From NCBI GenBank assembly GCA_003223455.1, contig QHVE01000020.1, forward strand, positions 14,431 to 78,430: DNA of 64,000 bases. Reading direction: 5' to 3'. Shown here in pieces: positions 15,528 through 18,605 of the stretch. The translations under genes were made by a program, and so were the position numbers. This stretch comes from Gemmatimonadota bacterium. GTDB lineage: Bacteria; Gemmatimonadota; Gemmatimonadetes; Gemmatimonadales; Gemmatimonadaceae. Within the stretch, counting starts at the first letter, position 1; the number at the start of each line of letters is the position of its first letter. The notes beneath the pieces were generated by a model. It was not told the DNA's origin and searched no databases. It saw only the letters and a program-made list of their open reading frames with translations.

Positions 15528-16559
15528 TCACGCGGCGGCCACCGCCGGCGCGATGATCGAGTAGTCCTGCCGGCGGCGCGCGGGAGTGAAGCCGGCGTCG
15601 CGGATGAGGCGCTCCATCTCTTCGATCGTCGTGCGATGGGTGGTGTTCGCCGCGGACACGACGTTCTCCTCGATCATGAGCGAGCCGAAGTCGTTGCAGC
15701 CGAAGTGCAGTGCCGTCTGTCCGATCTTCATCCCCATCGTCACCCAGCTCGACTGGATGTTGGGGACGTTGTCGAGGACGACGCGCGCGAACGCAACCGT
15801 GCGCAGATAGTCGACGGCGTCCGTCTTCGGCATGTGCGACATGCGCGGCGTGTTCTCCGGTTGCAACGGCCAGCAGATGAACGCCGTGAACCCGTTCGTG
15901 CGCGCCTGCACCTCGCGAACGCGTTCGAGATGCTCGAGCCGCTCCGCAAGCGTCTCGCCGATGCCGTACATCATCGTGACGGAGGTCTTCATCCCCTCCT
16001 GATGCGCGATCTCCATGATCTCGAGCCAGCGGTCGGCTCCCGCCTTCTTTTTCGCCACGTCGTCACGCACGCGCTGCACGAGGATCTCGCCGCCCCCGCC
16101 CGGGATCGAGTCGAGTCCCGCCTTCTGGAGCTCGCGAATGACGTCGCGGGCGTCCATGCGGTACAGCTTCGACCAGAAATCGACCTCGCTCGGGCTGAAC
16201 CCGTGGACGTGAATCGGGTGATTGCGCTTGATGTACCGGAGCAGGTCGAGGTACCACTCGAACGGGATGTACGGGTTGTGCCCGCCCTGCATGAGGATCT
16301 GCACGCCGCCGAGCGCCTTGGTCTCCTCGATCTTGGCGCCGATCTGCTCGTACGAGAGCGTCCATCCCTCTGCGTCCTTCGGCCGACGATAGAAGGCGCA
16401 GAAGCCGCAGTCCGCGACGCAGACGTTCGTGTAGTTGATGTTGCGATCGACGATGTAGGTGACGACGTCTCCCGGATGGAGGCGCTGGCGCACGCGATGC
16501 GCCTCGGCGCCGAGCTCGAGGAGCGGTGCGCGCTGATAGAAGTCGAGCAGATCACGCAT
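15528..16559 (-). CDS. mqnC: Cyclic dehypoxanthinyl futalosine synthase (radical SAM)
   Basis: The 343-residue radical SAM protein has the canonical CX3CX2C cluster motif (CVADCGFC, Cys47/51/54). Other family blocks are GGVQILMQGGHNPYIPFEWY, HGFSPSEVDFWSK, GLDSIPGGGGEILV, MMYGIGET and HFGCNDFGSLMIEENVV. It performs the radical cyclisation of dehypoxanthine futalosine in the alternative menaquinone pathway. I chose the ATG at 16559 over a GTG nine bases upstream because the domain starts MRDLLDFYQ. It is the third gene of a mqnE-mqnA-mqnC run. MqnB and MqnD are not in this window. Confidence 0.96.
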   Translation of the reverse strand: MRDLLDFYQRAPLLELGAEAHRVRQRLHPGDVVTYIVDRNINYTNVCVADCGFCAFYRRPKDAEGWTLSYEQIGAKIEETKALGGVQILMQGGHNPYIPFEWYLDLLRYIKRNHPIHVHGFSPSEVDFWSKLYRMDARDVIRELQKAGLDSIPGGGGEILVQRVRDDVAKKKAGADRWLEIMEIAHQEGMKTSVTMMYGIGETLAERLEHLERVREVQARTNGFTAFICWPLQPENTPRMSHMPKTDAVDYLRTVAFARVVLDNVPNIQSSWVTMGMKIGQTALHFGCNDFGSLMIEENVVSAANTTHRTTIEEMERLIRDAGFTPARRRQDYSIIAPAVAAA

Positions 16560-16602
16560 GACAATCACCGAGAATCGTGCAGCGACCGGCTCCGCGCGCG
16601 CA

Positions 16603-17439
16603 TCACGCGGCGGGCAGGAAGGCGAGCGAGCCGTTGGGCACGCGCCCGCTGGCGGCGAGCTTGCCGAAGAACGTCGTCAGGCCCGCGAGGTGCTCGTAGC
16701 GGAGGCCGTAATCGAGGCCCGAAAGATACTCCCACGCCGCGTCGCGTGACACACCGGTCGCCTGGGCGGCCTGGTCGGCGAGCACGGGGAGATTGGCGAG
16801 GCCCCAGTCGCGCGAGCGGATGAGTTGCGCATGCAGCGCCAACGACTGCTCGACGGGAGCGGTCCGCTGCGCCACCCAGACGGCGAACACGAACGGAAGA
16901 CCGGTCCACGCCTTCCAGACGGCTCCCAGGTCGTAGGCGAAGGGGTACTCCCGCGCGAGGTCGCTCGCGCCGGAGCTCAGGAGCAGCGCGGCGTCACCGA
17001 TGATCAGCCGCGCGTCGTGCTCCGGCTGCTCGGCGCGCGCGAGGTCGGCGATCTCGGCGTCGGCGGGCACGAACGCCGGCCGCGCCTTCCAGACGTGGTC
17101 GAACAGCAGCTCGAGCAGGACGACGCTCGTCATCGAGCTGCGCGTCACGAGCACGCGGCGTCCGCCGAGTCGCTCGGCCGGCGTACGCGAGAAGAGCATC
17201 ACGCTCCGCACCGGTCCGTCGCAGGAGATCGCCAGGTCGGGCAGCAGGAGATACCGCGCCGTGTCGCGCGCATACTCGACGGCGGAGATCACGCTGATGT
17301 CGAGCCCTCCCTGCGCCATGCGTCGATTGAGCGCAGAGGGTATCCCGTCGACGAGCGTCGCATCGAGTGCGACGAGGCCGCGATCGATGCCGCCGTAGAC
17401 CGGGTAGCAGTTGATGTAGGGAATCCTGCCGACGCGCAT
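16603..17439 (-). CDS. mqnA: Chorismate dehydratase of the futalosine menaquinone pathway
   Basis: The 278-residue protein has a periplasmic-binding-protein-like fold. The N-terminus RVGRIPYINCYPVYGG, the block DISVISAVEYARD and LLLPDLAISCDGPVRSVMLFS are MqnA signatures. It removes water from chorismate to make 3-(1-carboxyvinyloxy)benzoate, the substrate of MqnE. The ATG at 17439 lies two bases after the mqnE stop; a GTG at 17445 overlapping that stop is also possible. MqnD shares the fold, but the N-terminal block and the adjacency to mqnE support MqnA. Confidence 0.94.
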   Translation of the reverse strand: MRVGRIPYINCYPVYGGIDRGLVALDATLVDGIPSALNRRMAQGGLDISVISAVEYARDTARYLLLPDLAISCDGPVRSVMLFSRTPAERLGGRRVLVTRSSMTSVVLLELLFDHVWKARPAFVPADAEIADLARAEQPEHDARLIIGDAALLLSSGASDLAREYPFAYDLGAVWKAWTGLPFVFAVWVAQRTAPVEQSLALHAQLIRSRDWGLANLPVLADQAAQATGVSRDAAWEYLSGLDYGLRYEHLAGLTTFFGKLAASGRVPNGSLAFLPAA

Positions 17440-17441
17440 CG

Positions 17442-18605
17442 TCACGCCGCGGCTCGCGTCGGATCGTCGTCGAAGGTGCGAATCACGTTGTAGAAGGAGT
17501 CCCGCTCGGCGGGGATCTTCCCCGCGCCGCGGATGATGCGCAGCAGCTCGTCGAGACTCATCGCCTGCGCGGTGTGCGCACCCGCCTCGTGATAGATCTT
17601 CTCGCGGACGACGGTGCCCTCCAGATCGTTCACGCCGAAGTGCAGCGACAGCTGCGACAGCGCCGGCGTCACCATGATCCAGTGCGACTTGACGTGGTCG
17701 AAGTTGTCGAGGAAGAGGCGGCCGACGGCGAGGTTCTTCAGGTCGTCGACGCCGGTCGTCGCCGTGCCCTGGCGTCCCAGCTCCGCGCCCAGCTCGTTGT
17801 TGTCCGGGTGATACGCCAGCGGGATGTACGCGAGGAAGCCGCCCGTCTCGTTCTGCAGATCGCGCAGCATGCCGAGATGGTGGATGCGGTCCTCGACCGT
17901 CTCGACGTGGCCGTACAGCATCGTGCAGTTGGTCCGGATGCCGAGACCGTGCGCGACGCGGTGGACGTCGATCCACTCACTGCCCGCCAGCTTCCGATCG
18001 GCGATCGTGGCGCGCACGCCGGGGCTGAAGACTTCGGCGCCACCACCGGGCATCGTGTCGAGCCCCGCCTCGCGCAGCGCCACGAGGACATCGCGGACCG
18101 ACATCTTCTCGATGCGCGCGATGTGGGCGATCTCCACGGCGGTCAGCGCCTTGATGTGCACCTGTGGGTGACGCGCCTTGAGGCCGCGGAACATCTCCGT
18201 GTAGTAGGCCAGCCCCGCCTTCATGTCGAGACCGCCCACAATATGGAACTCGCGCGTCATCGCTCCCGCTGCCTGCTCCGCCTCGGCCCACACCTGATCC
18301 ATCGTGTAGCGGTACGCGCCGTCTTCTTTCGGCAGGCGGGCGTAGGAGCAGAAGACGCACGTTGCGCGCAGGATGCAGACGTTCGTCGGATTGATGTGCT
18401 GATTGGCCGCGAAGGTGACCCGGTCGCCGTGCTTCGCGCGGTTCGCCGCGTCGGCGATCGTGCCGAGGCCGAGCAGGTCCGAGGTGCGAAACAGGGCCAC
18501 ACCCTCGGCCGGCGTGAGCCGTTCGCCCGCCATGACCCGGTCGGCGATCGCGTGCAGCGCCGGGTCGGAGATGCGGGAGCGGTCGAGCACGACGGCAGGG
18601 GGCAC
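17442..18605 (-). CDS. mqnE: Aminofutalosine synthase (radical SAM) with an unusual CX5CX2C cluster motif
   Basis: The 387-residue protein matches MqnE throughout: FAANQHINPTNVC, EFHIVGGLDMKAGLAYYTEMF, TAVEIAHIARIEKMSVRDVL, GLDTMPGGGAEVFSPGVR, TNCTMLYGHVET, FLAYIPLAYHPDNNELG and HFGVNDLEGTVVREKIYHEAG. It joins SAM adenosyl to the MqnA product. The cluster-binding cysteines are Cys77, Cys83 and Cys86, spaced CX5CX2C, where MqnE and most radical SAM enzymes have CX3CX2C. The reading frame is continuous through this point, so two extra residues are really encoded between the first two cysteines. It is first in mqnE-mqnA-mqnC and follows fabF by four bases. Confidence 0.95.
   Translation of the reverse strand: MPPAVVLDRSRISDPALHAIADRVMAGERLTPAEGVALFRTSDLLGLGTIADAANRAKHGDRVTFAANQHINPTNVCILRATCVFCSYARLPKEDGAYRYTMDQVWAEAEQAAGAMTREFHIVGGLDMKAGLAYYTEMFRGLKARHPQVHIKALTAVEIAHIARIEKMSVRDVLVALREAGLDTMPGGGAEVFSPGVRATIADRKLAGSEWIDVHRVAHGLGIRTNCTMLYGHVETVEDRIHHLGMLRDLQNETGGFLAYIPLAYHPDNNELGAELGRQGTATTGVDDLKNLAVGRLFLDNFDHVKSHWIMVTPALSQLSLHFGVNDLEGTVVREKIYHEAGAHTAQAMSLDELLRIIRGAGKIPAERDSFYNVIRTFDDDPTRAAA

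Follow-up and report, generated by a model that had tools for sequence, protein, structure and literature searches.

An inherited CX5CX2C variant of the aminofutalosine synthase MqnE in Gemmatimonadota

The window, a 64,000-nucleotide stretch of DNA from a Gemmatimonadota bacterium, carries mqnE, an mqnA-like gene and mqnC consecutively on the same strand, as expected for a futalosine-pathway setting (Table 1). The mqnE open reading frame is intact, running from a GTG start to a TGA stop, and its stop lies two base pairs from the ATG of the mqnA-like gene. An earlier sequence-only reading had drawn attention to the iron-sulfur cluster motif of the encoded protein, whose three cysteines were said to follow a CX5CX2C spacing (hereafter X5) rather than the CX3CX2C spacing (X3) of nearly all radical SAM enzymes. 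The motif was confirmed in its context, HINPTNVC-ILRAT-C-VF-CSYAR, as was the ordinary spacing of the neighboring MqnC, where the cysteines read C50-VAD-C54-GF-C57.

Table 1. Genes and motif features of the mqnE locus (positions in the window)
Feature	Coordinates	Strand	Evidence
mqnE, aminofutalosine synthase, 387 aa	17442..18605	-	TIGR03700 above cut-off; Pfam Radical_SAM and CofH_C; AlphaFold2 model nearest to PDB 6xig/6xi9
mqnA-like gene (VitK2_biosynth, PF02621)	16603..17439	-	Pfam E 6.7e-67; directly downstream of mqnE
mqnC, cyclic dehypoxanthinyl futalosine synthase, internal X3 control	15528..16568	-	TIGR03699 470.4 bits, above cut-off; motif CVADCGFC
CX5CX2C cluster motif, Cys77-ILRAT-Cys83-VF-Cys86	18348..18377	-	Sequence; kept in 108/108 aligned clade relatives and 166/298 phylum genomes
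ILRAT spacer separating ligands 1 and 2; five residues, where other MqnEs have three	18360..18374	-	Alignment, NCBIfam position test, 6xi9 alignment

Membership of the MqnE family was decided by the full-length model, the CX3CX2C spacing being typical of the family and not defining for it. Against TIGR03700, the NCBIfam model for MqnE, the window protein scored 444.1 bits (cut-off 434.55) with model positions 1-351 covered, and the X3 spacing of the model is the feature that it lacks. The Pfam Radical_SAM domain (PF04055), with the three cysteines, scored 42.8 bits against a threshold of 29.5, and a CofH_C domain is also present. The related enzymes MqnC and CofH share with the window protein their radical SAM subfamily (TIGR00423) and the CofH_C domain, but the window protein falls below the cut-offs of both the MqnC model TIGR03699 (351.7 vs 428.1) and the CofH model TIGR03551 (305.9 vs 374.1).

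A paralogue that catalyzes another reaction would be one way to account for a score only slightly above the MqnE cut-off, and slightly below it in some relatives, together with fixed differences at several positions. The gene setting speaks against this reading, which we consider very unlikely. The gene adjoins mqnA and mqnC, and the genome holds no second MqnE candidate, the sole other TIGR03700 match being MqnC itself. Moreover, no MenD scored above cut-off in the genome, and two proteins match PF02621, in keeping with MqnA plus an MqnD candidate located elsewhere. Given the lack of another MqnE candidate, the two PF02621 proteins and the lack of a MenD above cut-off, the pathway most likely depends on the window mqnE. 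Judged by this gene content, the protein most likely performs the aminofutalosine step and would thus have to hold a working cluster.

The normal spacing for MqnE was established in several ways. In a position test, the window protein was cut at Cys77 and at Cys83 and each piece was scanned against the NCBIfam models; the equivalents of the two residues fell at positions 58 and 62 of TIGR03700, giving an X3 consensus for the family. All seven of the NCBIfam MqnE, MqnC and CofH models with measurable cysteine positions likewise place the first two cysteines four positions apart (two for MqnE including NF006276, two for MqnC, and three for CofH including a CofGH fusion). The MqnE of Pedobacter heparinus (PDB 6XI9) reads CVYDCKFC and, when aligned with the window protein, is two residues shorter at this point, and plasmid-borne MqnEs of Paenibacillus, Streptomyces and Sulfurovum are X3 in each case. 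These curated models and sequences bear out the sequence-only reading's premise that CX3CX2C is the rule for MqnE, and they rule out X5 as the usual form, although the reachable sample from outside the phylum was small (P. heparinus, Paenibacillus, Streptomyces and Sulfurovum), the named-genome matches listed being nearly all from Gemmatimonadota. The X5 form may occur in some phylum outside those sampled. A search of viral contigs for MqnE returned one 49-residue fragment at a contig edge, and the X5 pattern was found in none of them. As a separate observation on phage DNA, the 274-kb record of Microcystis phage MaAM05 (L118; MW495066.1, 5001-6110) contains, close to its 5' end, an mqnC-like gene that is intact and could be phage-borne or could represent host DNA in the assembly.

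Within the phylum, the X5 form is widespread. All 80 of the nearest named relatives among the matches listed are X5, and nearly all of these are titled as Gemmatimonadota or one of its lower ranks (the titles of two give no phylum). When the phylum was scanned with a degenerate DNA pattern encoding the X5 motif, matches came from 166 of 298 genomes, one in each, and from 66 of 119 genera, whereas the reversed control pattern gave one match in the same 298 genomes. Besides the window protein, 107 further relatives read CX5CX2C in frame. Six extra bases introduced by sequencing or assembly are therefore refuted as an explanation, and we regard their probability as negligible: the loop is in frame in 166 independent genomes, where it is written with different synonymous codons, and more than 100 independent genomes effectively resequence the site with its six bases in place. 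In families f1-f4, f7 and f9 of the 298-genome sample, every full-length MqnE match carries X5, while X3 MqnEs occur only in f8 (CVLDC), f10 (CVAFC) and f11, the last being a separate lineage outside the class. The neighboring mqnC is X3 in 68 of the 68 loci read, and the spacer change is therefore specific to MqnE; the X3 spacing of these mqnC genes and of the MqnC and CofH models further sets those enzymes apart from the window protein.

Phylogenetic trees, both built with the loop columns removed, indicate a single origin for the longer spacer. The X5 proteins formed one clade with an SH-aLRT of 99 on a tree of 61 rows rooted with MqnC, and on a 34-row tree the same clade had a bootstrap of 100 and an SH-aLRT of 99 and was recovered in 100% of bootstrap trees. 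The X3 MqnEs of f8, f10 and f11 lie outside it; their exact joining point is unsure, as is the branching order among the X3 lineages, owing to long branches. Since the X5 proteins are a single clade, the two-residue insertion arose once, and the sampled tree shows a single gain with neither loss nor regain; on the sequences aligned here, a single two-residue gain accounts for the X5 distribution. The proposal of the sequence-only reading that the loop had been remodelled in this lineage is thereby upheld. Divergent X3 MqnEs outside the clade were also observed in f8 (L121, L123) and f10 (L005), with 43-50% identity to the window protein. Their occurrence in the same class may reflect replacement by transfer or early divergence, and either is possible.

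The residues of the loop are strongly conserved in the clade. All 108 X5 proteins have Cys77, Leu79, Cys83, Phe85 and Cys86, Phe85 being the CxFC aromatic, and Arg80 and Thr82 are each present in 105, the sole alternative (Asn/Val) occurring in three proteins of f7 and f9. Position 81 is free (K/N/T/A/H/Q), and the resulting consensus is C-x-L-R-x-T-C-x-F-C. The codons for Leu79, Arg80 and Thr82 vary synonymously, with six Leu codons in use, for example, and the residues are therefore held by purifying selection and not by recent ancestry. The N-P-T-N and HIVGG segments that flank the loop are also retained in the clade.

Taken together, the explanation that we favor, and hold to be probable, is that of a functional futalosine-pathway MqnE in which one ancestral two-residue insertion between ligands 1 and 2 converted CX3CX2C to CX5CX2C, with cluster ligation and SAM contacts that would remain canonical. 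Cys77, Cys83 and Cys86 would still bind one [4Fe-4S] cluster, while the longer spacer would bulge out between the first two ligands and be held in place through contacts made by the conserved Leu, Arg and Thr. The C-X2-C half of the motif would be unchanged, as would the aromatic residue that contacts SAM. SAM would bind as usual at the open iron and give the adenosyl radical that adds to the substrate. MqnE uses its adenosyl radical by addition and not by hydrogen abstraction. The sequence-only reading had gone further and suggested that SAM binding might be altered, for which we found no support; Phe85, conserved in 108 of 108 proteins, and the retained N-P-T-N and HIVGG flanks point instead to ordinary SAM binding.

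Two versions of the favored explanation are conceivable. In the first, the insertion was a near-neutral accident fixed once in an ancestor, and Leu, Arg and Thr are conserved only for folding of the longer loop. This version, to which we give about an even chance, agrees with the one gain without loss or regain in the sampled tree and with the intact cluster ligands and CxFC aromatic residue, but sequence does not separate it from adaptation, and its structural predictions are all common to the favored explanation. In the second version, the longer loop is adaptive: along with His308, Ala160, Leu154 and other residues, it would alter the potential of the cluster, the geometry of SAM, tolerance to oxygen or reductant docking while the MqnE reaction is kept. 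Leu79, Arg80 and Thr82 are kept clade-wide, as adaptation would have it, and residues 69, 108, 154, 160, 308 and 329 are fixed in the X5 clade and differ in X3 MqnEs. His308, for example, is replaced by Tyr or Phe in 12 of 12 X3 sequences, Ala160 by Asp or Glu in 10 of 12, and Leu154 mostly by Phe or Trp. These co-fixed positions may, however, simply have been inherited together along a single long branch; a trait that arose once is not replicated independently, and the X3 side of the comparison had only 12 sequences. Because their branch is also that of the insertion, His308, Ala160 and Leu154 are only leads. We regard adaptation as unlikely. A functional change in redox behavior, SAM geometry or partner docking is thus possible but unsupported. 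A broader notion is that menaquinone synthesis throughout a bacterial class relies on an MqnE with a loop remade in one event (CxLRxTCxFC) and with active-site changes, the two together altering SAM or cluster behavior; this, too, we regard as unlikely.

An AlphaFold2 model of the window protein (54 sequences, mean pLDDT 84.8) best matched the P. heparinus MqnE structures, with a TM-score of 0.84 and an E-value of 1.3e-35 for 6xi9_B and TM-scores of 0.83-0.84 across 6xig and 6xi9; the entry title of 6xi9 describes a complex with aminofutalosine and methionine. The next-best match other than MqnE was HydE (E 1.8e-14). The two MqnEs are alike in family model, in fold, in their three cluster cysteines and in the CxFC aromatic residue, with ~40% identity, and they differ in that the spacer of the window protein has five residues where that of P. 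heparinus has three, and in other fixed residues such as His308. The description of the window protein as an otherwise standard MqnE needs qualifying, because the X5 clade carries several other fixed differences. Model confidence was low at the cluster loop (mean pLDDT of 56 for block 81-90), compared with a pLDDT of 74 for the X3 loop in a control model of the window MqnC of similar alignment depth. The predicted X5 loop is less certain than an ordinary one, and neither model contains a cluster; loop geometry is not to be taken from them.

Among radical SAM enzymes generally, CX5CX2C is rare, as the sequence-only reading had stated, and the published case is HmdB (HcgA), which serves the [Fe]-hydrogenase cofactor (PMC4389238, PMC10100467). 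HmdB and the X5 MqnE have this spacing in common but differ in family and reaction; the HmdB model TIGR03957 has a cut-off of 320.9 bits, and the window protein scores 30.2, which rules out its membership. The longer spacers of the two enzymes are therefore most likely separate events. QueE, too, combines a lengthened spacer with a canonical cluster site, its CX14CX2C being described as the canonical motif with one extended loop (PMC4389238), although the QueE insertion is much longer and its reaction unrelated. In the open-access literature searched, no paper linked CX5CX2C to menaquinone, and none linked aminofutalosine synthase to Gemmatimonadota. The X5 MqnE represents a genuine, heritable variant of an enzyme already known, and no description of it was found in that literature.

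The CX3CX2C motif serves to recognize radical SAM enzymes, and few exceptions have been published; motif-based annotation could therefore miss or doubt X5 MqnEs. Moreover, a clade-wide exception of single origin, in a family for which a crystal structure with bound product is available, offers a clean natural X5/X3 pair with which to study how far the spacer matters for cluster assembly, redox potential and SAM binding. The Gemmatimonadota are numerous bacteria of soil and fresh water, and MqnE is an enzyme of their vitamin K2 pathway. Finally, in two further genomes (L132 and L133 in G240 and G264, family f5), the CofH-like match falls in very long open frames of 849-885 aa that also contain another, weaker radical SAM match farther upstream, which suggests that CofG-CofH fusions of the FbiC type occur in Gemmatimonadota.
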